DNA from: Albidovulum aestuarii
GTDB taxonomy: Bacteria; Pseudomonadota; Alphaproteobacteria; Rhodobacterales; Rhodobacteraceae
Direction of reading: 5' to 3'
DNA: 64,000 nt
Assembly (NCBI RefSeq): GCF_029961185.1
Contig: NZ_JASBQQ010000002.1
Span: 310,001-374,000 of the forward strand
Shown here in pieces: positions 46,906 to 60,255 of this stretch. Numbering within the stretch: position 1 is the stretch's first letter; the number at the start of each line of letters is the position of its first letter. The notes under the pieces are model-generated. The model saw only the letters and a program-made list of their open reading frames with translations. It made no database searches and was not told where the DNA came from. Made by a program: the position numbers and the translations under genes.

Positions 46906-48294
46906 CTACTTGATGATCGTCTCGGGTCCCATGACCTGTGTCGGCAACCAAGTCGAGAGGCCCGGCACATAGGTCACAATGATCAGGAAGACGAAGAGCA
47001 CTGCAAGGAAGGGCAGCGCCGCCTTCACAACCCGCATCATCGACATGCCAGCCACGCCGGAAGTCACGAAGAGGTTGAGGCCAACCGGCGGCGTGATCAT
47101 GCCGATCTCCATGTTCACCACCATGATGATGCCGAGATGGATCGGATCAACACCGAGCGAGATCGCGATGGGGAACACCAGGGGCGCGACGATCAGGATC
47201 AGGCCCGACGGTTCCATGAACTGGCCGCCGATCAAGAGGATCACGTTGACGATGATCAGAAACACGATCTTGCCGAAACCCGCGTCCAGCATGGCCGCCG
47301 CGATCTGCTGCGGGATCTGCTCATCCGTCAGCACATGCTTCAGGATCAGCGCGTTCGCGATGATGAACATCAGCGTGACCGTCAGCTTGCCCGCCTCGAA
47401 AAGCGTCGCCTTGGTGTCGCGGTGGAAGAACCCCGTGACCAGCGCGATGGGCTTCTGGATCAGCGTCAGGTTCCCACCCTCGCGTGAGAGCGGCCCCATG
47501 TCGCGGTAAATGAAGGTCGCGACGATGAAGGCCCAGACAGAGGCGACGGCGGCCGCTTCGGTCGGTGTGAAGATCGCCGCCGTGATGCCCGGGATGCCGT
47601 AAAGACCGACCATGATGATCACGATCAGCATCAGACCCCAGAACGCCTCGCCGAAGCTTTCGAAGACCTCACCCCAGCCGAGCCATTCGCCTTTCGGCAG
47701 GTTCTTCCAGATTGCCCAGATCAGGATGGTCGCCATCAGCATGCCGCCCGCAAGAAGGCCCGGGAAGACACCCGCAAGGAACATCCGGCCGACCGACACG
47801 TCAGTGGCAGAGGCATAGACGACCATGACGATCGAGGGCGGGATAAGGATACCGAGCGTACCGGCATTACAGATCACGCCTGCGGCAAAGTCCTTGGAAT
47901 AGCCGACCTGCCGCATCGCCGCGATGACGATGGAACCGATGGCAACCACGGTCGCGGGGCTCGACCCCGACAGCGCGGCAAAGAGCATACAGGCGAAGAC
48001 ACCGGCGATCGCCAGACCGCCCGGCAGGTGGCCGACGCAGGCAATTGAGAAGCGGATGATCCGTTTCGCCACGCCGCCCGTCGACATGAAGGAAGAGGCG
48101 AGGATGAAGAACGGGATCGCCAGCAGGGTCGAATGCCCCTCCATCGCGTTGTAAAGCGTCTGCGCGATCGAGGCGAGCGATGTGTCCGAGAACCACAAGA
48201 GGAACAGGGTCGATGACAGGCCGAGCGAGATGGCGATCGGAACGCCGATCAGCATGAAGCCGATCACCATGAAAAAGAGAAGGACGACTTCCAT
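46906..48294 (-). CDS. dctM: TRAP transporter large permease DctM
   Basis: The 462-residue DctM protein is the 12-span subunit that couples sodium to substrate import. GVPIAISLGLSSTLFLLWF, the SSFMSTGGVAKRIIRFS loop and ALSGSSPATVVAIGSIV are typical, as is the late MEIGMITPPVGLNLFV. A roughly 60-residue insert near the middle is common to some C4-dicarboxylate-type systems. It follows dctQ by five bases. Confidence 0.94.
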   Translation of the reverse strand: MEVVLLFFMVIGFMLIGVPIAISLGLSSTLFLLWFSDTSLASIAQTLYNAMEGHSTLLAIPFFILASSFMSTGGVAKRIIRFSIACVGHLPGGLAIAGVFACMLFAALSGSSPATVVAIGSIVIAAMRQVGYSKDFAAGVICNAGTLGILIPPSIVMVVYASATDVSVGRMFLAGVFPGLLAGGMLMATILIWAIWKNLPKGEWLGWGEVFESFGEAFWGLMLIVIIMVGLYGIPGITAAIFTPTEAAAVASVWAFIVATFIYRDMGPLSREGGNLTLIQKPIALVTGFFHRDTKATLFEAGKLTVTLMFIIANALILKHVLTDEQIPQQIAAAMLDAGFGKIVFLIIVNVILLIGGQFMEPSGLILIVAPLVFPIAISLGVDPIHLGIIMVVNMEIGMITPPVGLNLFVTSGVAGMSMMRVVKAALPFLAVLFVFLIIVTYVPGLSTWLPTQVMGPETIIK

Positions 48295-48299
48295 TTATC

Positions 48300-48980
48300 T
48301 CACTCCTCGTAATTCATGTGGCGGACGTCTTCCACGGCGTCTTCCGCTTCGTGGCTGACGATGAGGGATTCACGCGTGCCAGTCAGAAGGCCCCAGGTCG
48401 CCTGGATCAGGCGGAAAAGCAGGAGCGCGCAGCCGATCGGCAATATCGCGTAGGGAATGAAGCGCGGCAGCTTTTCATAGGCCTCGCCCTGATTGAAGAT
48501 GGGTTCGATAAACCTGAGCAAGTCGGGCATCGGAATCTGCTCGGTTTCATACCAGGCCTGATCGCGGGTCTTGATGAACCCCTCGGGGAACCAGCGCCCG
48601 CCGGTCTGCTCGAACCCGCCGAACGGCGCCCAGTAATCCCAGGCCCCTTTCATCAGCAGGAAGGCGTAGGCGAGACAGCAGACGGCCGCGGCAAGTGCGA
48701 GGATACGCCGCCCACGATGAGGCAGGACGTTGATTACCGCATCAACACCGAGATGGGCCGTTATCTTCACCGCATAGGACATGCCGAAGAGAACGAGCCA
48801 GGCAAAAAGCGCCGAGGTCAGCTCCAGCCCCCAGATGAGGGAGGAGTTGAAGACATAGCGCAGGATGACGTTGACGAATGTGATAACGGTCATCAGGCCG
48901 AGGAGCACCGCGATCACGGTTTCCTCGAATTCATTCACGACGCGGCCCAGCGGCGTCGCGGGTTCATACTTGCCGCTCAT
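48300..48980 (-). CDS. dctQ: TRAP transporter small permease DctQ
   Basis: A 226-residue four-span protein, partner of DctM. FEETVIAVLLGLMTVITFVN and WGLELTSALFAWLVLFGMSY are the family blocks. The loop between spans three and four is long (about 50 residues). AAGGGGGAGGAAAG is a strong ribosome site at 48980. It is separated from dctP by a perfect GC hairpin. Confidence 0.93.
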   Translation of the reverse strand: MSGKYEPATPLGRVVNEFEETVIAVLLGLMTVITFVNVILRYVFNSSLIWGLELTSALFAWLVLFGMSYAVKITAHLGVDAVINVLPHRGRRILALAAAVCCLAYAFLLMKGAWDYWAPFGGFEQTGGRWFPEGFIKTRDQAWYETEQIPMPDLLRFIEPIFNQGEAYEKLPRFIPYAILPIGCALLLFRLIQATWGLLTGTRESLIVSHEAEDAVEDVRHMNYEE

Positions 48981-49001
48981 CTTTCCTCCCCCTTTTGAAA
49001 T

Positions 49002-49027
49002 GGGCCCGGCCATGTCCGGCCGGGCCC
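49002..49027 (-). promoter_or_regulatory. Intercistronic hairpin between dctP and dctQ
   Basis: GGGCCCGGCC and GGCCGGGCCC form a perfect 10-bp stem with a 6-base loop. No T-run follows on the minus strand, so it is more likely a 3' mRNA stabiliser or partial attenuator that lets dctP exceed dctQM. Confidence 0.75.
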
Positions 49028-49053: not shown

Positions 49054-50061
49054 TCAGCTGCCGGTGTTGAAGGACTGCGCCGCGTCGATGTTGTCCTGAC
49101 CGATGCCGTCCGCGAACTGAGCCCAGACCGGCTTCATTGCGTCGACCCAAGCCTGACGCTGCTCGTCGGTCAGTTCGACGATCACGCCGCCATTGTCGAG
49201 CACAGCCTGACGGGCATCCGCATCAACCTGATTGACGGCGGCGTTCCGTTCAGCGGTCACTTCCGCAAGGATGGTCAGGACCTGATCCTTGACCGCCGGG
49301 TCAAGGCTGTCGAGCCAGTCAACCGAGGCCACGACGAGATAGTCGAGCACGCCGTGGTTGGTTTCGGTCGTACCGTCCTGCACTTCATAGAACTTCTGGC
49401 CATAGATGTTGGACCAGGTGTTCTCCTGCCCGTCGACAACGCCCGTCTGAAGCGCGCCGTACACCTCGGCAAAAGCCATCGGCTGCGGCGAGGCACCGAG
49501 CGCCTCCATCTGCGCGACGATCACGTCCGACGGCTGCACCCGGATCTTCAGACCGGCCATATCGGTCGGCAGCAGCAGCGGCTTCTTGGCCGACATCTGC
49601 TTCAGGCCGTTGTGCCAGAACTCCAGACCCTGAAGACCGCGACGGGTCATCGAGTCTTTCATCGCCTTACCGGCCTCGGATGCCTGGAACGCGTCGACCG
49701 CCTTGATGTCCTTGAACATGAACGGAAGGTCGAAAATCTGGAATTGCTTGGTGAAGGCCTCGAATTTCGACAGCGAAGGTGCTGCGAACTGCACGTCACC
49801 CTGAAGCATGGCTTCGAGAACCTGGTCGTCATCGTAAAGCGTGGAGTTCGGATAAACCTCCATGCAGGCGGTGCCGTCCATCTCGGCGTTCACACGCTCG
49901 GCGAAGAGCGACGCTGCGATACCTTTCGGGTGCTTGTCGGAGTTCGTCACATGGGCGAACTTCATAACGATCTCGCCTTCGTCGCATCCCGCGCTGGCAA
50001 CAGCAGCGCCAGCGGACAGCGCAAGAGCCATCGCGGTCATGGTGGTGGTTAGAGTTTTCAT
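49054..50061 (-). CDS. dctP: TRAP transporter solute-binding protein DctP
   Basis: The 335-residue periplasmic protein has a signal peptide ending near ASA-GC, then MKFAHVTNSDKHPKGIAASL, GLQGLEFWHNGLKQMS, the conserved substrate-binding Arg in GLKIRVQPSDV, and GQENTWSNIY. This is the DctP family of C4-dicarboxylate and related organic acid receptors; the exact ligand is not shown. AGGAT precedes the ATG. A 345-base regulatory region lies upstream. Confidence 0.93.
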   Translation of the reverse strand: MKTLTTTMTAMALALSAGAAVASAGCDEGEIVMKFAHVTNSDKHPKGIAASLFAERVNAEMDGTACMEVYPNSTLYDDDQVLEAMLQGDVQFAAPSLSKFEAFTKQFQIFDLPFMFKDIKAVDAFQASEAGKAMKDSMTRRGLQGLEFWHNGLKQMSAKKPLLLPTDMAGLKIRVQPSDVIVAQMEALGASPQPMAFAEVYGALQTGVVDGQENTWSNIYGQKFYEVQDGTTETNHGVLDYLVVASVDWLDSLDPAVKDQVLTILAEVTAERNAAVNQVDADARQAVLDNGGVIVELTDEQRQAWVDAMKPVWAQFADGIGQDNIDAAQSFNTGS

Positions 50062-50130
50062 AGGTATCCTCCCAAAGACTTACTTCCCCAGCGCCATGCC
50101 ATGATGACGACGCTTCAGGGTAGAAAAGCC

Positions 50131-50145
50131 GCAAGCATTCTACCG
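50131..50145 (-). promoter_or_regulatory. Candidate -24/-12 (sigma-54) element upstream of dctP
   Basis: On the minus strand CGGTAGAATGCTTGC has GG and GC separated by the 10 bases required for a sigma-54 promoter, with TTGC at -12. Agreement at -24 is partial (CGGTAG against TGGCAC). A TTGACG about 70 bases upstream is a rival sigma-70 -35. Confidence 0.4.
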
Positions 50146-50237
50146 ATCAATGGTTCTTTTAGCGGGGGAGGAAATGTCGATTTTTACATTTAATATTAGA
50201 ATGATATCGTCAAATACTCTGATCTTTCGGTCTGCTG

Positions 50238-50288
50238 TGTGCGACTGACCGCACATGCATTGCCAAAGAGTGTGCGGAAATTCGCACA
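50238..50288. promoter_or_regulatory. Two identical palindromic activator sites upstream of dctP
   Basis: TGTGCG-ACTGAC-CGCACA (50238-50255) and TGTGCG-GAAATT-CGCACA (50271-50288) share perfect arms and spacing, with centres 33 bases apart. They lie about 180-225 bases before the dctP ATG, as expected of tandem enhancer sites for a Fis-type activator dimer. The rest of the 50062-50406 gap is an AT-rich segment near 50180-50220. Confidence 0.8.
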
Positions 50289-50406: not shown

Positions 50407-51636
50407 TTATTCCCGGTAGTCTTCGGGTCGTATCCCGTGCCGGGTCAGCTTGTCATAAAAAGTCTTGCGCGGCAGCTTCAGCGCTGCCGCCGCCTCGGTC
50501 GCATTGCCCGTGTGGCGGACCAGCGCCTCGATCAGCAGCGATTTTTCCACCCGCGCCATCTGCCCGGCCAATCCGGGCGCCCCGTCATCCTCATGCGCCT
50601 CGTCCAGCCCCATGGCAAAACGCATCGCGGTATTCATCAGCGCGCGGGCATTGCCGGGCCAGTCCTGCGCCATCAGGTCGGCGATGACCTCGGGGGTGAT
50701 TTCCGGCACCGGCAGGTCGGACTGTTCGCAGGCAATCGCGACGTAGTGACGGAAGAGCACGGGGATATCCTCGGGCCGTTCCTTCAGCGCGGGAATGCGG
50801 ACCCGGATCACGTCGAGCTTGTAGAAAAGGTCAGGATTGAACCGCCCTTCCCCAGCCTCTGACCTCAGGTCGCGATAGGTGCCTGCGATCACCCTGATAC
50901 CGGGATGGCCGTCGATCAGATCGAGCGCCGCGAACTGTGCCGCCGGAGGCAGGGCCGCCACTTCATCCAGAAAGATCGACCCGCCCTCAGCCCGCTCGAA
51001 GGCGGCCGCCAGCGTTTCGGGCGTGGCCGAGGCGGCCGACAGCTTCTGGAAGGGCCGCATCGCGGCGGCGGAAAGAAGATGGATCACCTCAGCCATCTTG
51101 GCGGTCCCGGCGCCCGGCGGGCCCGAGATCAGCACCTCGGCCGAGGTTCGTGCCGCCGCCCGCGCCGCCTCACGCATCTGTTCCGACAGGACCGAGGTCC
51201 CGACAAGCATCCGCGCCGCCGCATCCCCGCGCCGGATTTCGCGCTTCAGGGCGCGGTTTTCCAACACCAGCGCCCGCGTCTTCAGCGCTTTCTGCACGAC
51301 AGAGAGGAAGTCCTGCGGATTGCATGGTTTTTCGAGAAAGTCGAAGGCCCCGCCGGTCATGCCCTTGACCGCCATCGGCACATCGCCCTCTCCGGTCAGG
51401 AGGATCACCGGCAGGTCGGGATCGGTCTTGCGGGCGTGTTCAAGAAGGTGGAAGCCGTCCCGACCCGGCATCCGGATATCCGACACGACAATACCGGCAA
51501 ATTCCTTGGCGATGTGGTCCTTCGCCTCGATGAAGCTCGATGCCAGAACCGGTGCCAGACCTGCCAGTTCCAGCGTCTGTCCCAGCGCCTCACGCACGGC
51601 ACGGTCATCATCGACAAGAAGCACACGTTCGCTCAT
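50407..51636 (-). CDS. dctD: DctD-type response regulator lacking the GAFTGA loop
   Basis: The 409-residue protein has a receiver domain (phosphoryl Asp53 in VVSDIRMPG), an AAA+ domain (about 140-345) and a C-terminal Fis-type helix (ATEAAAALKLPRKTFYDKL). The AAA+ part is degenerate. Walker A reads GPPGAGTAK (172-180) instead of GxxGxGKE, and the region between the first block and Walker B IFLDEV (221-226) is about 20 residues short, with no GAFTGA. It therefore should not remodel sigma-54 RNA polymerase in the usual way. It overlaps the kinase gene by ATGA and lies upstream of dctPQM. Confidence 0.9.
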   Translation of the reverse strand: MSERVLLVDDDRAVREALGQTLELAGLAPVLASSFIEAKDHIAKEFAGIVVSDIRMPGRDGFHLLEHARKTDPDLPVILLTGEGDVPMAVKGMTGGAFDFLEKPCNPQDFLSVVQKALKTRALVLENRALKREIRRGDAAARMLVGTSVLSEQMREAARAAARTSAEVLISGPPGAGTAKMAEVIHLLSAAAMRPFQKLSAASATPETLAAAFERAEGGSIFLDEVAALPPAAQFAALDLIDGHPGIRVIAGTYRDLRSEAGEGRFNPDLFYKLDVIRVRIPALKERPEDIPVLFRHYVAIACEQSDLPVPEITPEVIADLMAQDWPGNARALMNTAMRFAMGLDEAHEDDGAPGLAGQMARVEKSLLIEALVRHTGNATEAAAALKLPRKTFYDKLTRHGIRPEDYRE

Positions 51637-53354
51637 GCTGCCCTCGCCTTGCGCGCGGCATCGAGTTCAAGGATGAACTCCGCGCCCCCTTCTGGCCGGT
51701 TGCGGCCGGAAATCGCGCCGCCAAAGCTTTTCACGATCCCGTACGAAATGGACAGGCCAAGCCCCATGCCCTCGCTCGCGCCGACCTCCTTGGTCGAATA
51801 GAACGGGTCGAAGACCCGGTCGGGCTCGGCGATACCCGGTCCGGTATCGGTCACCGTCAGACGGACGCGGCCCGCAGTCCGGTCGATCCGGATCGTCACC
51901 AGACCGCCCGCCTCCATCGCATCGGCGGCATTGGCGAGAAGGTTCATCAGCACCTGTTGTAAACGCACCTCGCCACCACGCACCCACACCGCACGGGTAG
52001 GCGGCACCCAGTCAACCGTGACTCCGGCGGCCCTGAGCCGCGCCTCGCTCAGTTCCATCGACGCCACGACGACCTGCCCCAGATCGACATCGCTCATTGC
52101 CTCGCTTTCCTGCCGGGCAAAGGCGCGCAGGTTCTTTATGATCCGCCCCATGCGATGGGCAAGGTCGTTGATCCGGCCAAGGTTCTCCACGGCTTTGTCG
52201 GGCTGGCCGCGGTCCAGAAACAGCCCCGCATTCTCGGCATAGGACCGGATCGCGGTCAGCGGTTGATTGAGTTCGTGGCTGATCCCCGCCGACATCTGGC
52301 CAAGCGCCGACAGCTTGCCCGCCCGAACCAGATCCGCCTGCGCCCGCTGAAGCTGATCATTGGCCTCGGAAAGCTCGCGCGTCCGCTCCTCCACCCGGCT
52401 TTCCAGCCGTGCATTCGCCTCGGCCTCGGCGGCAAGCTGTACCGCCAGGGCGCGGCGGCGTTCAAGCAGCGCATAGATCGCCGTACCAATGACGATACAG
52501 GCCGCCGCCGCCAGAAGTGCCTCCAGCAGCGCCTGCCTTTCCGCAGGGGCAATGTCGACCAACGCCTCGCCCGTCATCTCGATCACCGGCAGAGGCCGGG
52601 TCAGGTGCAGGGCGCGGGTCGGCAGATAGGGCCCGCCGTCAAGGTCCCAGATTTCATGCCGGTCGATGCGGCGCACCTCGCGGCGAAGCAGGTCGGCGGG
52701 CACAGTGCCCTCTTCCCCCGGCAGCAAATCAAGCCGCACCAGAACCAGCTCGTCGCGGTTCGACACAAAGGCGATGCCGTCCGTGTCGGTGAAAAAGACA
52801 ATCATCGGCTCGCCGCGCCAGATCACCTCCACCGCCTCTGTCTCGACCCGGGTAATGAGGGCACCCACGACCGGACCCTCGGGAGAAAAAACCGGCGCGG
52901 CATAGACGAAGAGCCGCCGCCCGGAAGCACGCTCGATCTCGTGGTGAAAGCCCAGCGCCCCTTGCATGGCCCGCCTGAAATAGGGCGAGACCGACATGTC
53001 CGCGCCATGGGCAGGTCCGGACGAGGCGATGACCCGCCCGTTCCTGTCCGTCAGCACCAGTTCGTCCGAACGGGTCATGTCGGCGGTACGCCGCAATAGC
53101 CGGTCCGCCTGGCCAGGATTGGCAGCGGAATCAAGCGCAAGGCGCAACACCTCGGGATGATCCGCCATCAGCACGGTCATCTCCCGGTAACGCTGCAACT
53201 GGCCCAGAAGCCTGTCGCCTGCGAGCGCCAGATCGGCACGGCCGCGGTCTTCCAGCCGCGCTAGGGCGTCACTCAGCGACCGCCACCAGACGCCGCCGGT
53301 AACGCTCCCCGCAAGCGCGAGAAAAACCAAAAGCGCCAGCGCGCGTCGGATCAT
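51633..53354 (-). CDS. dctB: DctB-type sensor histidine kinase
   Basis: A 573-residue inner-membrane kinase with a first span near 6-28, a long periplasmic double-PAS-like sensor (about 30-280), a second span, a coiled-coil linker, the H-box SAGISHELNQPLTAIRSYAEN, N-box NLLANAADAM and G-boxes DTGPGIAEP and GMGLGLSIS. This layout is that of DctB, which senses C4-dicarboxylates. The ATG at 53354 follows GAGGGAGGACTGC. It pairs with the adjacent DctD-type regulator. Confidence 0.92.
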   Translation of the reverse strand: MIRRALALLVFLALAGSVTGGVWWRSLSDALARLEDRGRADLALAGDRLLGQLQRYREMTVLMADHPEVLRLALDSAANPGQADRLLRRTADMTRSDELVLTDRNGRVIASSGPAHGADMSVSPYFRRAMQGALGFHHEIERASGRRLFVYAAPVFSPEGPVVGALITRVETEAVEVIWRGEPMIVFFTDTDGIAFVSNRDELVLVRLDLLPGEEGTVPADLLRREVRRIDRHEIWDLDGGPYLPTRALHLTRPLPVIEMTGEALVDIAPAERQALLEALLAAAACIVIGTAIYALLERRRALAVQLAAEAEANARLESRVEERTRELSEANDQLQRAQADLVRAGKLSALGQMSAGISHELNQPLTAIRSYAENAGLFLDRGQPDKAVENLGRINDLAHRMGRIIKNLRAFARQESEAMSDVDLGQVVVASMELSEARLRAAGVTVDWVPPTRAVWVRGGEVRLQQVLMNLLANAADAMEAGGLVTIRIDRTAGRVRLTVTDTGPGIAEPDRVFDPFYSTKEVGASEGMGLGLSISYGIVKSFGGAISGRNRPEGGAEFILELDAARKARAA

Positions 53355-53416
53355 GCAGTCCTCCCTCTTCGGCACAGTCTAGCCAACGCGTCGGTCCGAA
53401 GGCCAGCGGCTTTCGG

Positions 53417-53565: not shown

Positions 53566-54516
53566 ATGCTCAATCTGAAAAGCAAGATCGGCGCGCTGAT
53601 CGCGGCGGCCACTCTGGCCGTTCCGGTGGCGGCGCAGTCCGAGGAATTCATCAACATCCTGACCGGCGGCACGTCCGGCGTTTATTATCCGCTCGGCGTC
53701 GGCCTCTCGAAAATCTACGCGGACAATATCGACGGTGCGCGTACGCAGGTGCAGTCGACCAAGGCCTCGGTCGAGAACCTGAACCTGCTTCAGCAGGGCA
53801 AGGGCGAACTGGCGCTGGCGCTTGGCGACTCGGTCAAGCTCGCCTGGGAAGGCAATGCCGATGCAGGTTTCGCCGAACCGCTCGCCAAACTGCGCGGCAT
53901 CGCGGCGGTCTATCCGAACTACATCCAGATCGTCGCGTCTAAGGAAAGCGGCATCACCTCGCTCGACGGGCTGAAGGGCATGAGCCTGTCGGTTGGCGCG
54001 GCGAAGTCGGGCACCGAACTGAACGCGCGGGCGATCTTCGCTGCGGCGGGCATGACCTATGACGACCTCGGCAAGACCGAATACCTGCCCTTCGCGGAAT
54101 CGGTCGAACTGATCAAGAACCGCCAGCTTGACGCGACGCTCCAGTCGGCGGGTCTTGGCGTGGCCTCGATTAAGGACCTCTCGACCTCGGTCGACATCCA
54201 GATGGTCTCGGTCCCCGAAGAGGTTGTGACTGCACTCGGCGCGCCTTACATCGCCGCGACGATCCCGGCGGGCACCTATCAGGGGCAGGATGCGGACGTT
54301 CCGACCGTGGCCGTGGTCAACTTCCTCGTGACGCATGAGGACGTGTCGGAGGAGACCGCCTACCAAATGACCAAGCTTCTCTTTGAAAACCTTGGCGAAC
54401 TGGAAGCCGCCCACAAGGCTGCCGCCCAGATCAAGCTTGAGAATGCCCTGAACGGCATGCCGATCCCGCTGCATCCGGGTGCCGAGCGCTTCTACAAGGA
54501 AGCCGGCCTGATGTAA
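53566..54516 (+). CDS. TAXI-family TRAP solute-binding protein
   Basis: The 316-residue periplasmic receptor has a signal peptide (cleavage near AQS-EE) followed by INILTGGTSGVYYPLGVGLS, STKASVENLNLLQQGKGELA and ATIPAGTYQGQDADVPTVAV, which mark the TAXI family. TAXI receptors are often linked to glutamate, 2-oxoglutarate or related acids; the ligand here is unknown. GGGAGG precedes the ATG. It is followed by a hairpin and a fused permease. Confidence 0.93.
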   Translation: MLNLKSKIGALIAAATLAVPVAAQSEEFINILTGGTSGVYYPLGVGLSKIYADNIDGARTQVQSTKASVENLNLLQQGKGELALALGDSVKLAWEGNADAGFAEPLAKLRGIAAVYPNYIQIVASKESGITSLDGLKGMSLSVGAAKSGTELNARAIFAAAGMTYDDLGKTEYLPFAESVELIKNRQLDATLQSAGLGVASIKDLSTSVDIQMVSVPEEVVTALGAPYIAATIPAGTYQGQDADVPTVAVVNFLVTHEDVSEETAYQMTKLLFENLGELEAAHKAAAQIKLENALNGMPIPLHPGAERFYKEAGLM

Positions 54517-54522
54517 TCTCAA

Positions 54523-54551
54523 AACCCCGGGCGGCCCGTCCGCCCGGGGTT
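54523..54551 (+). promoter_or_regulatory. Intercistronic hairpin after the TAXI receptor gene
   Basis: AACCCCGGGCGG and CCGCCCGGGGTT form a perfect 12-bp stem with a 5-base loop, 30 bases before the permease ATG. There is no T-run. The likely role is differential expression of receptor over permease. Confidence 0.75.
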
Positions 54552-54581
54552 CACGGCTTTCCAGGGGAGGGGAAAACCGCA

Positions 54582-56675
54582 ATGGCTCAGCCATATCACG
54601 ACATGCCAAAGGACGCTCCCGATCTGGGGCTGCACGATCCGCTGGCGGAAAGCTTTCCGGCGACCACGGAGGGCCGCGCGCTTTTCTGGATCGCCGTTCT
54701 TTTCTCGGTCTTCCAGATCGCCACGGCGGCGCATCTTCTGGACTTTTCCAGCCAGATCGTCCGGGCGTTCCATGTCGGATTCCTGACGCTGCTGGGCTTT
54801 CCCCTGCTGGTCGCGCTGAAGCGCAAAGGCGTGCCGTTCAAGGCCGTCGCCTGGGCGCTCGCGCTGTCCGGCGTGATTGTCGCGCTTTATCAGTGGTGGG
54901 AATACACGCCCCTGATCCTGCGCGCGGGCGACCCGCTGCCGCGTGACATATTCCTTGGCATCGTCGCGTTGATCACCGTTTTCGCCGCCGCATGGCTTCT
55001 GATGGGGCCCGCCCTGCCGATCATCGCAGGTTGCTTCCTCGCCTATTGCTTCTGGGGCGAATACCTGCCCTCTCCCTTGAACCACCGGGGCTATGACTTC
55101 AGCCAGGTCATCGACCACATGGCCTATGGGACCGAGGGCATCTACGGCATCCCGACCTATGTGTCGTCGTCCTACATCTTTCTCTTTATCCTCTTCGGCT
55201 CGTTCCTTGAACGCGCGGGGATGATCAAGCTTTTCACCGATGTCTCGCTCGGCCTTGTCGGCCACAAGCAGGGCGGCGCGGCCAAGGTCGCGGTCGTCTC
55301 CTCGGGCCTGATGGGCACGATCTCGGGTTCGGGCGTCGCGAATGTCGTCACCACCGGCCAGTTCACCATCCCGCTGATGAAAAGCTTCGGCTACCGCCCG
55401 GCCTTCGCTGGAGGGGTCGAATCCACCGCCTCGATGGGCGGGCAACTGATGCCACCTGTGATGGGCGCCGTCGCCTTCATCATGGCCGAGACTTTGGGCG
55501 TCGAATATGTCGAGGTGGTCAAGGCTGCCCTCATCCCCGCGATCCTCTACTTCGCCTCAGCCTTCTGGATGGTTCATCTGGAGGCCGGGCGGCACGGTTT
55601 GAAGGGGATGGCGAAGGCCGACCTGCCCTCGCCCATCAAGGCTCTGAAAGAAAATTGGTATCTGATCCTGCCGCTTGGCGTGCTGGTCTACCTCCTTTTC
55701 TCCGGCTTCACGCCCCTCTTCGCCGGGACCATCGGGCTGGCCCTGACGGTGATGCTGATCCTCGGCGGCTCCATCGCGCTAGGTTTGCCGCAGGGCGTCA
55801 TCCGCATCCTTTTCTGGATCGGCCTTGGCGCCATCGCCGCCGCCTTCTTCGAGTTCGGCATCTTGCCGGTGGCCGTCGCGATCGCCGCACTGATCAGCTG
55901 GAACGCGATTTCAAAGGGTGGACGCGAAACATTGGCGCTCTGTCGCGACAGTCTGGCGGAAGGCGCGAAGACCGCGCTCCCGGTCGGCATCGCCTGTGCC
56001 CTTGTGGGCATCATCATCGGCACGATGACCCTGACGGGTGCTGCCAACACCTTCGGGCAATTCATCGTCCATGTCGGTGAAGGCAGCCTGTTCCTGTCGC
56101 TGATCCTGACGATGATTACCTGCATCATTCTCGGCATGGGGATCCCGACGATTCCCAACTACATCATCACCTCGTCGATCGCCGGACCGGCCCTGCTGGA
56201 ACTCGGCGTGCCGCTGATCGTCAGCCATATGTTCGTCTTCTATTTCGGCATCCTCGCCGACCTGACGCCGCCCGTGGCCCTCGCCTGTTTCGCCGCCGCA
56301 CCCATCGCCAAGGAAAACGGGCTGAAGATTTCGATGGAGGCGATCAAGGTCGCGGCCGCCGGTTTCGTCATCCCGTTCATGGCGGTCTACACTCCGACAC
56401 TGATGTTGCAGGACGGCGGCCCGCTGGCCGAGGCGTTCGGGTTCTGGCCCGGTGTCGCCTATATCGTGGCCAAGACGGTCATCGCCATCGGCCTCTGGGG
56501 CGCGGCCGTCATCGGCTGGCTCGGCCATCCCCTCAACTGGCCGCTGCGCATCCTCGCCGCAGCGGCCGCCGTCACGCTCATCGCTGCGCTTCCACTCACG
56601 GACGAAGCGGGTTTTGCCATGGCCGCGATTTTCGCGGGCCTTGTCTGGCGCACCCGTACCGCGAGGCCGGCATGA
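54582..56675 (+). CDS. TRAP transporter fused DctQM permease (TAXI type)
   Basis: A 697-residue protein with about 17 hydrophobic segments. The first four are the DctQ-like part and the rest the DctM-like part (SYIFLFILFGSFLERAGMIK; SGLMGTISGSGVANVVTTG; SMGGQLMPPVMGAVAF). Fusion is normal for TAXI systems. The ATG follows AGGGGAGGGGAAAACCGCA. It overlaps the DUF1850 gene by four bases. Confidence 0.95.
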   Translation: MAQPYHDMPKDAPDLGLHDPLAESFPATTEGRALFWIAVLFSVFQIATAAHLLDFSSQIVRAFHVGFLTLLGFPLLVALKRKGVPFKAVAWALALSGVIVALYQWWEYTPLILRAGDPLPRDIFLGIVALITVFAAAWLLMGPALPIIAGCFLAYCFWGEYLPSPLNHRGYDFSQVIDHMAYGTEGIYGIPTYVSSSYIFLFILFGSFLERAGMIKLFTDVSLGLVGHKQGGAAKVAVVSSGLMGTISGSGVANVVTTGQFTIPLMKSFGYRPAFAGGVESTASMGGQLMPPVMGAVAFIMAETLGVEYVEVVKAALIPAILYFASAFWMVHLEAGRHGLKGMAKADLPSPIKALKENWYLILPLGVLVYLLFSGFTPLFAGTIGLALTVMLILGGSIALGLPQGVIRILFWIGLGAIAAAFFEFGILPVAVAIAALISWNAISKGGRETLALCRDSLAEGAKTALPVGIACALVGIIIGTMTLTGAANTFGQFIVHVGEGSLFLSLILTMITCIILGMGIPTIPNYIITSSIAGPALLELGVPLIVSHMFVFYFGILADLTPPVALACFAAAPIAKENGLKISMEAIKVAAAGFVIPFMAVYTPTLMLQDGGPLAEAFGFWPGVAYIVAKTVIAIGLWGAAVIGWLGHPLNWPLRILAAAAAVTLIAALPLTDEAGFAMAAIFAGLVWRTRTARPA

Positions 56676-57046
56676 GCCTCGCCTGCCTCCTTGTCAGCGC
56701 CAGCGCCACCACCACGCTGACCCTTGCTTCGGCAAGCTTCGACCTGAGCTGGCGCCACTCTGTCGAAAAGACCGAATGGCGAGAGACATGGATCGTCGAA
56801 GGAGGCAGGCTGCATCTTACAGAAGCTGCAGTCAAAGGCTCTGGCGCGGGGATGGATCCCGGCAAGGGCGCTGCGCTTATTGACGGCTGGTGGGTCTGGA
56901 CCCCGGACCTGCCCCCGGTTCCGAACCTCACCCTTGCCGCATCCGGCGCGACAGGGGGTGGCTGGCGGATCTGTGACGGAACCATCTGTCACGAAATCGG
57001 CGCAGAGCCCGGTGAGGCGATCCGGCTATCGCCCTGCAAGGGCTGA
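56672..57046 (+). CDS. DUF1850 protein linked to TAXI TRAP transport
   Basis: A 124-residue protein with an N-terminal hydrophobic segment and FDLSWRHSVEKTEWRETWIV, the DUF1850 hallmark, plus three cysteines near the C-terminus (ICDGTICHE, SPCKG). DUF1850 genes are often found next to TAXI permeases, which suggests an accessory role, but none has been shown. The ATGA overlap implies co-translation. Confidence 0.9.
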   Translation: MSLACLLVSASATTTLTLASASFDLSWRHSVEKTEWRETWIVEGGRLHLTEAAVKGSGAGMDPGKGAALIDGWWVWTPDLPPVPNLTLAASGATGGGWRICDGTICHEIGAEPGEAIRLSPCKG

Positions 57047-57175
57047 GCGCTTGCCTTCCGTTCCGCCGCACGGTGCTGTCACGAAGGATACCAGCGGACC
57101 GCGTGACCTTGGACGGAAGCTCCGATACGCTTCGCCCCGAATCCAGTGCCGGGGGACCGCGCCTTGCCCGAGACA

Positions 57176-58957
57176 ATGCCGGGAAAGCCGAAGCCGATGA
57201 TCGCCAGCCGCCGCATCGTCGCGATCTTCCTTGCCGTGGCCTGCCTGGCGGCAGCGCTTGCCTTCACGCTCACCTACCGCCTTGGCCTGTCTTCCCTCGA
57301 CGCCGATCTAGACCAGTCGCTGATCCTCACCCGCCGCTCCATCGAAAGCGAAATCGAGCGGTTCCGCCATCTGCCCGAAATTGCTGCCGAGGATGCCCGC
57401 ATCCGGGCCGCACTCAACGCGCCCGGCCCATCGGCGATCGATGCCGCGAACCAATACCTTGAGACAGTGACCGGAAAATCAGGGGCGGCTGACCTCTTCC
57501 TTCTCGACGGCGACGGCACCGCCATTGCCGCCTCGAACTGGAATACCGGGCAAAGCTTTGTCGGCAACAACTATGCCTTCCGGCCCTATTTCCGCGACGC
57601 CATCGCCAGCGGGAAGGGCCGGTTCTATGCGATTGGCGTGACCACCGGCAAACCGGGTTATTTCCTGTCCTCGCGGATCGGGACCGGTGAAAGGACTGGC
57701 GTTCTGGCCGTGAAGATCGACCTGAAACCGCTTGAGGAAACATGGAAAAGCGCGCGTTCGGCAACCGCTATCGCCGACCGCGACGGGGTCGTGTTCCTCT
57801 CCGGCATCGACGACTGGCTTTACCGCCCGTTCACGGCGCTGGACGAGGGAACGCTGGTACGGCTGGCCGAGGTTCGGACCTATGACGGCGTCGATCTGGC
57901 CGCCGCTCGCCCCCTTCTCGACAGCCCGGACCGGCTGTCGCTGCCCGGCCCGGACAATTCGGCCCTGCGCGGCCGTATTGCCCGGATCGAGGCCGATGGC
58001 TGGGCCGTGCTCTCAGCCGCGCCGACATCTCCGGTTCTTGCCACCGCAATCCTGTGGGCCACCGGTGCGGCGCTCGTGGCCATGGCGGGCACCGGGTTTG
58101 GCCTCATCGTCTATCAACGCCGCCAGCTTGTTCAGCTTCGCCTCAGGCAAGGCGCGCTGCTGGAGGCGCGGGTCGCCGAACGCACCCGAGAATTGGCCCA
58201 TGAGATCGAGGCGCGGCGCAAGACCGAGGCCGACCTCAGGGCAGCGCAGGAAACGCTGGTCCATACCGAAAAGATGGCAGCACTCGGCCGCATGTCGGCG
58301 GCCATCGTGCATGAGATGAGCCAGCCCTTGGCGGCGATGGAGGCCACGCTTGCCGCTGCTGAACTCTCAACCTCCGAAGACAAGACCACGACCCGCATCG
58401 GCACCGCCCGCAATCTCATCCGGCGCATGCAGCGCACCACGAAACATCTCAAAAGCTTCAGCCGCAAAGAGCCGAACCAGCTGACGCTCACCGACCTCAA
58501 CCGTGTCGTGGAAAGCGCGCTCGACCTCGTCGCGCCCCGCGCGAAGGCAGTGGGCGTCACACCCGCATTCGCCCCTGCCGACCCGGCGCCGATGGTCATG
58601 GCAGGCCCGGTGCGTCTGGAACAGGTCTGCCTCAACCTACTACTGAACGCGCTCGACGCGGTAGAACACAGCGAAGGCGGGACCGTGACGATTACCACGG
58701 ATAACGGGAACGGCGCTGCCCGCGTCACCGTGACCGACACCGGCACCGGGATCGCACCGGACGATCTGGCCCGCGTCACCGAACCCTTCTTTTCCACCAA
58801 GATCAGCGGCGAGGGCCTTGGGCTTGGCCTGTCGATCTCTCAGGCGATCGTGACCGAGTTCGGCGGCCGGATCGACATCCGCTCCGATCCGGGTCGCAGC
58901 ACGACGGTCAGCGTTGTCCTGCCACTCGCGCAAAGCATTGCCGAGGTCGCGGAATGA
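57176..58957 (+). CDS. DctB-type sensor histidine kinase of the TAXI operon
   Basis: The kinase has two spans (about 8-28 and 290-315), a periplasmic sensor between them with SFVGNNYAFRPYFRDAI and GVTTGKPGYFLSSRI (dCache-like), a coiled coil, the H-box SAAIVHEMSQPLAAMEATL, N-box NLLLNALDAV and GLGLGLSIS. The H-box reads HEMSQP rather than HELNQP. The start is uncertain; 57197 is an alternative, and none has a good ribosome site. It overlaps the regulator gene by four bases. The TRAP ligand is the likely signal. Confidence 0.9.
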   Translation: MPGKPKPMIASRRIVAIFLAVACLAAALAFTLTYRLGLSSLDADLDQSLILTRRSIESEIERFRHLPEIAAEDARIRAALNAPGPSAIDAANQYLETVTGKSGAADLFLLDGDGTAIAASNWNTGQSFVGNNYAFRPYFRDAIASGKGRFYAIGVTTGKPGYFLSSRIGTGERTGVLAVKIDLKPLEETWKSARSATAIADRDGVVFLSGIDDWLYRPFTALDEGTLVRLAEVRTYDGVDLAAARPLLDSPDRLSLPGPDNSALRGRIARIEADGWAVLSAAPTSPVLATAILWATGAALVAMAGTGFGLIVYQRRQLVQLRLRQGALLEARVAERTRELAHEIEARRKTEADLRAAQETLVHTEKMAALGRMSAAIVHEMSQPLAAMEATLAAAELSTSEDKTTTRIGTARNLIRRMQRTTKHLKSFSRKEPNQLTLTDLNRVVESALDLVAPRAKAVGVTPAFAPADPAPMVMAGPVRLEQVCLNLLLNALDAVEHSEGGTVTITTDNGNGAARVTVTDTGTGIAPDDLARVTEPFFSTKISGEGLGLGLSISQAIVTEFGGRIDIRSDPGRSTTVSVVLPLAQSIAEVAE

Positions 58958-60255
58958 GCGCGCTTGTCTTCGTGGTGGATGACGACGCCGATCATCTGGC
59001 CGCCGCCAGCGACCTGATCGAGACGGGCGGGCATCGGGTACGGGCCTTTGGCAGCGCCGCTGCCGCCCTCGATGCGCTGGACGAAGACCCCGGTGTGATC
59101 GTCACCGATCTCAGAATGCCCGGGATGGATGGTTTTGGCCTGATCGTGGCGCTGAAGGATCGCGGTGGCGACCATCCGGTGATCGTGATGACCGGGCATG
59201 GCGACATCACACAGGCCGTGCGCGCGATCCGCGACGGTGCCGAAGATTTCCTTGAAAAACCCTATGATGCAGGGCACCTGCTTCTGGTGATCGAGCGCAC
59301 ATTGAAGGCACGCGCCACACGCGACGAACTTCACCGGCTGCGATCCGCGATGGCCCCGCAGGCAATTCTCGGCGACAGTCCGGCGATGACCGACCTCAGG
59401 CAAAGGATCGCGGCCCTCGCGCCCCTCGATGTCGATGTCGTGGTGACCGGCGAAACCGGCACCGGCAAGGAACTCGTCGCCCGCGCCCTGCACGCCCAGA
59501 GCCACCGCGCCGCTGGTGCCTATGTCGCGCTGAACTGCGCGGCCCTGCCCGAAGCCCTCTTTGAGATGGAGATATTCGGCCATGGTTCAGGCGCTTTTCC
59601 CGGTGCTACGGCTGACCGACCGGGCAAGCTTGAACTGGCCAGTGGCGGAACGCTGGTTCTGGACGAGGTTGAGGCGATGCCGCTGCCGGTACAGGCAAAA
59701 CTCTTGCGCGCACTTCAGGAACGCAGCGTCGAACGGCTGGGCGAAAACCGGCTGCGGCCGCTTGATCTGCGGGTTGTCGCAATTTCCAAGGCGGATCTGA
59801 AAGCTCTGAGTTACGAGGGGACGTTCCGCCCCGATCTCTACTATCGGCTTGCAGGCACGGAAATCGCGACGACCCCGTTGTCCGGAATGGCCGGGGATAT
59901 TCCGCTTCTCTTCGCCCATTTCGCGAATTTCGCCGCCGCCCGCACCAGTCGAACTTTACCCGAAATCACCTTCGCCATCCGGCGCGCGCTGGCCCGCCGT
60001 GCCTGGCCCGGAAACGTGCGCGAACTGAAGGCGGCGGCAGAGCGCTTCGCCCTTGGCATTGACACCGAAACCGGCGACAGTCCCCGTGCCGTCACCGGCG
60101 AAACCCTGTCCGACCGGCTTGCTGATTTCGAAGCCCGCGAGATTCAGGCGGCCTTGGACAGTTGCCGCGGCAATACCGAACGCGCCGCGCAACTCCTTGG
60201 ACTTCCACGCAGAACCCTGAACGACAAGATGAAGCGCCTCGGCATCGCCGTATAG
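58954..60255 (+). CDS. DctD/NtrC-type response regulator with GAFPGA motif
   Basis: A 433-residue three-domain regulator: receiver with Asp52 (VTDLRMPG), AAA+ domain with intact Walker A GETGTGKE (166-173) and Walker B LVLDEV, and Fis-type helix (TERAAQLLGLPRRTLNDKM). The sigma-54 contact loop reads GAFPGA (213-218): the Thr of GAFTGA is Pro, codon CCC at 59599-59601. It can probably hydrolyse ATP, while sigma-54 contact may be altered. It likely controls the TAXI operon. Confidence 0.92.
   Translation: MSALVFVVDDDADHLAAASDLIETGGHRVRAFGSAAAALDALDEDPGVIVTDLRMPGMDGFGLIVALKDRGGDHPVIVMTGHGDITQAVRAIRDGAEDFLEKPYDAGHLLLVIERTLKARATRDELHRLRSAMAPQAILGDSPAMTDLRQRIAALAPLDVDVVVTGETGTGKELVARALHAQSHRAAGAYVALNCAALPEALFEMEIFGHGSGAFPGATADRPGKLELASGGTLVLDEVEAMPLPVQAKLLRALQERSVERLGENRLRPLDLRVVAISKADLKALSYEGTFRPDLYYRLAGTEIATTPLSGMAGDIPLLFAHFANFAAARTSRTLPEITFAIRRALARRAWPGNVRELKAAAERFALGIDTETGDSPRAVTGETLSDRLADFEAREIQAALDSCRGNTERAAQLLGLPRRTLNDKMKRLGIAV

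Follow-up and report, generated by a model that had tools for sequence, protein, structure and literature searches.

Tandem DctD-type sites upstream of dctPQM in Albidovulum aestuarii: an enhancer-like operator beside a DctD that lacks the GAFTGA loop

What reads the two palindromes that lie between dctD and dctP in this genome, and with which form of RNA polymerase would that reader work? We addressed both questions from the window (the whole stretch of 64,000 nucleotides), from the rest of the genome, and from the corresponding loci of relatives.

The dct locus and its twin palindromes

The genes concerned are all on the minus strand. Read along that strand, dctB and dctD come first, then the palindromes, then dctP, dctQ, and dctM, so that the first-pass annotation placed the palindromes correctly, after dctBD and before dctPQM. 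The features are as follows.

51633..53375, minus strand: dctB, sensor histidine kinase (Pfam HisKA and HATPase_c; dCache_1 weak)
50407..51636, minus strand: dctD, response regulator of 409 aa with receiver, AAA+ domain without GAFTGA, and Fis-type HTH (Pfam, alignments, model)
50271..50288, no strand assigned: distal DctD site (predicted), TGTGCGGAAATTCGCACA on the plus strand, exact match, centre at about -165 from the inferred dctP start
50238..50255, no strand assigned: proximal DctD site (predicted), TGTGCGACTGACCGCACA on the plus strand, exact match, centre at about -132 from the inferred dctP start
49054..50061, minus strand: dctP, TRAP transporter solute-binding protein (Pfam PF03480, TIGR00787)
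48300..49013, minus strand: dctQ, TRAP small permease (weak NCBIfam match, 42 bits against a cut-off of 260, and position between dctP and dctM)
46906..48294, minus strand: dctM, TRAP large permease (TIGR00786)

DctD of the window carries Pfam domains PF00072, PF00158, PF25601, and PF02954; the sigma-54 interaction names that Pfam attaches were not taken as evidence of function. Its best NCBIfam match, PgtA, scores 268.6 bits against a cut-off of 650 and was likewise not used. The nearest named DctD, that of Defluviimonas sp. WL0050, is 96% identical. Adjoining the dct operon on the opposite strand is a second transport and two-component set (53566-60255, plus strand), read off the translations as a periplasmic-binding-protein-like gene (53566-54516) and a large TRAP-type membrane gene (54582-56675), followed by a sensor kinase (57146-58957) and a second DctD-like regulator (58954-60255) in which GAFPGA replaces GAFTGA.

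Both palindromes read TGTGCG-N6-CGCACA with perfect 6-bp arms, and their centres are 33 bp apart, as originally described. Their supposed identity extends to the arms and stops there: the N6 cores (ACTGAC and GGAAAT) differ at all six positions. A search of the window returned just these two exact copies, and the genome-wide search that had been proposed found the exact pattern at two places in 4.24 Mb, both of them here, with none for the reversed-pattern control. From base composition, a genome should contain about 0.48 exact copies by chance, and pairs lying within 100 bp of each other should number about 5.5e-6; a single site may therefore be chance, and the pair is not. With two mismatches allowed, the genome holds 155 matches and the reversed control 154; the weaker matches are therefore noise, and a wider DctD regulon cannot be read from this relaxed search.

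Correspondence with the rhizobial DctD operator

The DctD site of R. meliloti has been published as 5'-TGTGCGgaaatCCGCACA-3', and rhizobial dctA is reported to be preceded by at least two DctD sites (PMC11077940, accessible portion); a title in the reference list of the same paper speaks of a 50- to 100-fold affinity difference between two rhizobial sites. Set against the operator as that portion gives it, both window sites have the exact arms of the 18-bp palindrome TGTGCGgnnntCCGCACA, with which the consensus of 79 loci (see “Conservation of the sites in relatives”) also agrees, and among the published core bases the distal site fits all but one while the proximal core departs more. At the S. 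meliloti pSymB DctD locus, we find an exact-arm site and a two-mismatch site, adjoining a perfect sigma-54 promoter, CTGGCACGCATGTTGCT. Tandem sites thus precede a dicarboxylate transporter gene in both organisms, dctP in the window and dctA in S. meliloti, with the same spacing of 33 bp. In the last helix of the HTH, positioned from the AlphaFold model, residues P389, R390, K391, T392, and D395 are invariant in 48 aligned DctDs, including those of S. meliloti and Microvirga.

Because the published site, the 33-bp tandem, and the invariant HTH residues agree, motif and layout can be equated with the known DctD operator, and as judged from sequence the twin palindromes are the DctD operator of dctPQM. 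The earlier description of a design for a Fis-type dimer holds to the extent that the motif is that of a DctD-type Fis-HTH operator and that such a regulator is encoded next door; it fails in the sense of a classic sigma-54 enhancer (see “Sigma-54: factor and promoter”). The likeness to S. meliloti covers the palindrome, the tandem, the domain order of DctD, the HTH core residues, the position of dctB beside dctD, and the dicarboxylate transporter as target. The differences lie in the type of transporter (dctA in S. meliloti, a TRAP system in the window), in the stronger site, which is next to the promoter in S. meliloti whereas in most Rhodobacteraceae relatives the distal site is nearer consensus, and above all in the sigma-54 apparatus: GAFTGA in DctD and a perfect -24/-12 at the dctA promoter are both present in S. 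meliloti, and the window has neither.

Conservation of the sites in relatives

The first-pass annotation had named absence of the sites from relatives with the same gene order as the observation that would speak against it. The sites persist. The comparison comprised 79 loci: that of the window and those of 78 named relatives, out of 80, in which dctP lies in the flank (L049 and L126, where it does not, were left out); these loci are related by descent, and the counts are accordingly not independent. A site with at most two mismatches lies 186-263 bp before dctP in 78/79 Rhodobacteraceae loci, the exception (L106) having only three-mismatch sites there. Two sites precede dctP in 46 of the 79, spaced 33 bp in 36 loci, 32 bp in nine, and 34 bp in one; an alternative count, in which the partner was picked among spacings of 31-35 with a slight preference for 33, gives 59/13/6/1 loci. 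Random 330-bp stretches of the same loci contained one site in 11/390 cases and two sites in 0/390. The window, L076, and L123 alone have both sites exact, the usual pattern in relatives being a distal site near consensus and a weaker proximal one.

The sites remain before dctP where dctD is more remote. In 12 of the 78 named loci, dctD lies 0.4-2.2 kb away from the first site, and that site is still in its usual position upstream of dctP. Two genomes have dctP outside the 4-kb flanks of dctD: in Roseovarius autotrophicus two exact sites 32 bp apart precede dctP, and Defluviimonas sp. WL0050 has two sites at the same 32-bp spacing, with two mismatches and one. These two genomes could be taken to mean that another regulator, either a DctD-like paralogue or an unrelated palindrome binder, reads the operator, and that the adjacency of dctD is incidental; the genome indeed encodes further members of the superfamily, among them L008, a DctD-like regulator without GAFTGA. 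We consider this very unlikely, given that the motif equals the rhizobial DctD site, that the core residues of the HTH helix are invariant, and that exact sites cluster around this type of DctD. Across 100 unselected genomes of the family, 51 genomes hold a total of 71 exact sites, and the reversed control pattern occurs 34 times in 31 genomes; 49 of the 71 fall within 6 kb of this dctD type, and the remaining 22 are fewer than the control's 34. Among 47 scanned genomes with a close DctD, an exact site is nearby in 37 and absent in ten. A DctD of this type looks, on these predicted sites, like a regulator with essentially one target.

One further pair of TGTGCG-N6-CGCACA sites, 26 bp apart and with a TTATA-type core (G075:C1:551667-551710), has no close DctD nearby and possibly belongs to another regulator.

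A DctD without the sigma-54 loop

Aligned with S. meliloti DctD, the window protein has a gap that takes in GAFTGA and the entire segment surrounding it. The motif does not occur in any of 82 sequences (80 named loci, L019 as the window copy, and L020 of the same genus, which appears to duplicate L052). Nor does any of 30 loci from the genome search have a GAFxGA-like motif, though 13 of those genomes carry rpoN; loss of the loop is for this reason not a mere by-product of loss of rpoN.

The ATP site is also altered. Walker A reads GPPGAGTAK in the window protein and GETGSGKE in S. meliloti; in the arginine-finger stretch, FNPDLFYK stands in place of FREDLYYR, and the usual arginine-finger residues are gone. 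Walker B (FLDE) is retained. The P-loop variant, G-x-[P/A/T]-G-x-G-[T/I/N]-x-K, is conserved in the 30 loci, which argues that this non-canonical loop is not simply decaying, and its lysine, K180, is invariant in 39 sequences. Receiver residues D10, D53, T81, and K103 do not vary among 48 DctDs, so that the phosphorylation site is kept by sequence. An AlphaFold model of the window DctD preserves the AAA+ core (mean pLDDT 87.8, pTM 0.54), and the structures that it matches best are those of Brucella NtrX and NtrC-type proteins.

Other regulators of the genome follow suit. Nine enhancer-binding-protein-like frames, window DctD included, have no GAFTGA, two of them showing GSFLGA and GAFPGA; these nine (L003-L009, L011, L012) were read from 16 Sigma54_activat matches; among the other seven, L010 and L013 are further fragments of genes that the nine cover, and the weakest five (L014-L018) were left out. 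Absence of GAFTGA in all nine is fitting for a genome with no detectable rpoN.

Order of loss in related DctDs

More distant relatives suggest the order in which these parts went. Twenty divergent DctD regions were fetched, and nine of them (L137, L139-L143, L145-L147), which belong to another branch and have no dctP match in the stretch, were excluded from the site counts. In a tree built from 38 sequences, one group (support 0.84) takes in the main clade together with three sequences of intermediate type (L129-L131) and the eight that are divergently arranged; the intermediates (support 0.71) branch off before the rest. They lack GAFTGA and have a Walker A that is canonical or nearly so (GATGTGKD, GETGVGKE, GETGTGKE); in the group of eight, Walker B is absent as well. 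Since the intermediates keep Walker A without GAFTGA and the divergent group has lost Walker B too, the sequences suggest, with modest tree supports, that loss of the GAFTGA loop would have preceded that of the ATP site.

The operator can be followed through the same series. An exact site follows dctD in two of the three intermediates, L131 having none at up to two mismatches, and in six of the eight divergent loci a site with at most one mismatch lies between dctB and dctP. Three of the latter (L132, L133, L135) have two sites 41 bp apart, about four turns, as against three for 33 bp.

The separate branch of DctD-like proteins made up of the nine excluded sequences shows GAFPGA, GSFPGA, GAYPGA, GAFAGA, or GAFPNA in place of GAFTGA. 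A change from Thr to Pro at that position is described as a common deviation (PMC3162934, accessible portion).

Sigma-54: factor and promoter

In the A. aestuarii genome (99.99% complete), profile searches gave no match to PF04552 or PF04963, that is, no detectable rpoN. The same profiles match E. coli, B. subtilis, Caulobacter, and Bacteroides; four of 14 control genomes have the sigma-54 domains, as expected for rpoN carriers. Downstream of the sites, the -24/-12 consensus occurs at up to three mismatches in 6/79 loci against 6.4 in shuffles, so there is no enrichment, and the best match of the window has five mismatches. One locus (L101 by eye) has a full consensus with one mismatch, where 0.6 of the 79 would be expected at two or fewer. 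As a candidate sigma-54 promoter, TTTGGCAATGCATGTGC keeps GG-N10-GC by eye; it lies between the operators in a genome with no detectable rpoN and was set aside as chance.

The classical scheme implied by the first-pass annotation would have DctD loop to a -24/-12 promoter of dctP and open it by ATP hydrolysis. It draws on the motif and 33-bp tandem shared with S. meliloti dctA, where the -24/-12 is perfect, and on the 28 genomes, out of 127 that have a close DctD, in which rpoN is present. We regard it as extremely improbable: GAFTGA is absent from all 82 of the sequences compared, Walker A is altered, the arginine-finger residues are gone, the genome matches neither sigma-54 profile, and the promoter consensus stays at background, and on these observations classic sigma-54 enhancer design is not supported. 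Taken together, the missing GAFTGA loop, the altered P-loop, and a cell with no detectable RpoN predict that this DctD cannot use sigma-54.

The distribution of rpoN itself was dropped as proof of sigma-54 independence. Among 295 genomes, a close DctD being defined as E below 1e-100, the figure of 28/127 contrasts with 63/168 in the others (Fisher p 0.005), a difference confounded by descent. The 91 rpoN genomes here are a hand list of strong matches; the profile search itself gives 100/295 at E<=0.001, 92 of them above cut-off.

A putative sigma-70-type promoter and its fixed geometry

If sigma-54 is set aside, a promoter of the housekeeping type may be sought between the operator and dctP. 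A two-block motif search of the 79 loci, with CTTG as its seed, found a -35/-10 pair of which the -10 block is weak. The pair scores 12.6 bits per locus, against 8.8-9.8 in ten control sets whose bases were shuffled in blocks of 15. The elements of the window are these.

50178..50205, minus strand: AT-rich stretch at the place of the relatives' IHF-like element, degraded in the window
50145..50150, minus strand: putative -35 element TTGATC (two-block motif search, 79 loci)
50122..50127, minus strand: putative -10 element TTTTCT, 17 bp after the -35, weak motif; inferred start near 50115

The TTG of the -35 lies 127-130 bp from the centre of the distal site in 19 loci and 137-142 bp in 49, two classes about 11 bp (one helical turn) apart; the 11 of 79 loci that fall elsewhere count against reading the promoter as fixed. 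In an alignment anchored on the start of the distal site, a TTG near 149 is conserved, more weakly than the columns described in the next paragraph. The sequence TTGACG at 50213-50208 was rejected as a -35 element: it is unconserved, and the common pair lies further downstream.

Below the pair of sites, at about 93-106 bp from the start of the distal site, conserved columns read YAA-N4-[CT]TGA[AT]A and are followed by an A/T stretch. These resemble the IHF consensus, YAANNNNTTGATW. It occurs at up to one mismatch in 23/79 loci against 6.8 in shuffles; the window copy is degraded: relative to its sibling L166 the core has a 2-nt gap, and there is no good match. With positions assigned by a relaxed consensus (YAANNNNYTGAWW, at most two mismatches, 18-110 bp from the start of the proximal site), the element begins 55-57 bp ahead of the TTG in 52 of the 74 loci where one is present. 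Cross-tabulation of element and promoter gives 11 short-short, 41 long-long, three discordant, and 24 untyped loci, the window among the untyped, and in seven of the eight divergent loci the element lies 47-50 bp from the start of the proximal site. Because the IHF-like element moves with the promoter and keeps its place in those seven, operator, element, and promoter would so form a unit of fixed geometry, the length of which shifts by whole turns.

Binding of IHF to the element is a less secure prediction. The element may instead be a curved A/T tract or an UP element, or it may be bound by a different protein, an alternative that we think has an appreciable chance of being right, if a minority one: the element is degenerate, A/T-rich columns recur at steps of about 11 bp, the window copy is poor, and the consensus on the opposite strand is also somewhat elevated (13/79 at up to one mismatch, 5.6 in shuffles). 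Against this, no prior knowledge went into finding the columns, which match the consensus well above shuffles, the position recurs in the divergent loci, and about 80-90 bp before the inferred start is far for an UP element.

Proposed mechanism and its precedents

The reading that we favour is that the twin sites are probably the DctB-DctD operator of dctPQM, from which a sigma-54-independent DctD would activate a sigma-70-type promoter, with an IHF bend in most relatives. We infer DctD binding, positive action, the use of sigma-70, looping, and IHF. DctB would signal to DctD; dimers of phospho-DctD would bind both sites, lying three turns from each other on the same face of the helix; and bound DctD, acting over a DNA loop, would aid sigma-70 polymerase at the dctP promoter 130-165 bp further on. 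A bend in the DNA, presumably made by IHF in most relatives, would bring bound DctD to RNA polymerase. This mode of action may be likened to those of NtrC and HupR of R. capsulatus. R. capsulatus NtrC has tandem sites more than 100 bp upstream, and at hupSL HupR has a distant site, with IHF between it and a sigma-70 promoter.

The GAFTGA loop is deleted from R. capsulatus NtrC as from the window DctD, and that protein is reported to act via sigma-70 and to need ATP binding but not hydrolysis (PMC10274813, accessible portion). It belongs to another branch of regulators, with another operator and target, and its need for ATP binding contrasts with the non-canonical P-loop of the window DctD. Nucleotide binding by that variant is uncertain, and this counts against the proposal, R. 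capsulatus NtrC needing it (PMC10274813, accessible portion). HupR, which is described as a relative that has lost the interaction with sigma-54 and is grouped with TyrR, DhaR, and VpsR as GAFTGA-defective (PMC3162934, accessible portion), differs from the window DctD in operator and signal. Caulobacter NtrC, VpsR, TyrR, and DhaR similarly have no working GAFTGA and function, or are believed to function, at promoters of the sigma-70 type; as far as the accessible portions of these papers go, none is apparently a DctD with a DctD operator (PMC10274813, PMC3162934).

A GAFTGA-less DctD could also be a repressor or dual regulator at dctP, releasing or rearranging when phosphorylated. The loss of parts that couple the ATPase would suit a passive DNA binder, and Caulobacter NtrC, without GAFTGA, is reported both to activate and to repress (PMC10274813, accessible portion). 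We think this unlikely: the sites lie at least about 100 bp upstream of the inferred -35 rather than over the promoter, and in the accessible portion of one R. pomeroyi fitness study (PMC10041152), dctM (SPO2626), dctQ (SPO2627), and the regulator SPO2630, a putative orthologue, all have negative values in one assay. Those values are a weak hint of positive action.

Activation from a distance, as favoured here, leads to a broader and more tentative reading, in which our confidence is somewhat less than even: the whole layout of a sigma-54 enhancer, meaning tandem DctD sites, a bend element, a promoter more than 100 bp away, and whole-turn spacing, may have outlived sigma-54 across a broad clade of Rhodobacteraceae. 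GAFTGA-less DctD, with its non-canonical P-loop, would then recruit the housekeeping polymerase via a DNA loop without ATP-driven remodelling, the GAFTGA loop having been lost before the ATP site.

Implications for the Rhodobacteraceae

The DctD operator and the existence of GAFTGA-less regulators at sigma-70 promoters were already known. A search of titles and abstracts, with subscription papers mostly outside it, found no description of a GAFTGA-less DctD; as far as such searches show, what is new is a DctD clade that has lost the sigma-54 loop and in which the operator of DctD and an enhancer-like geometry persist. For annotation, the consequence is that the label “sigma-54 dependent regulator” misleads for these DctDs.

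Sigma-54 enhancers are the textbook case of ATP-powered action at a distance. Here, in many genera of the Rhodobacteraceae, one family of regulators seems to retain the enhancer without the sigma factor or, by sequence, a canonical ATPase. The series that runs from S. meliloti DctD, which is intact, through the intermediates with Walker A and no GAFTGA, to the divergent group in which Walker B is also gone, may be read as a stepwise exit from sigma-54.
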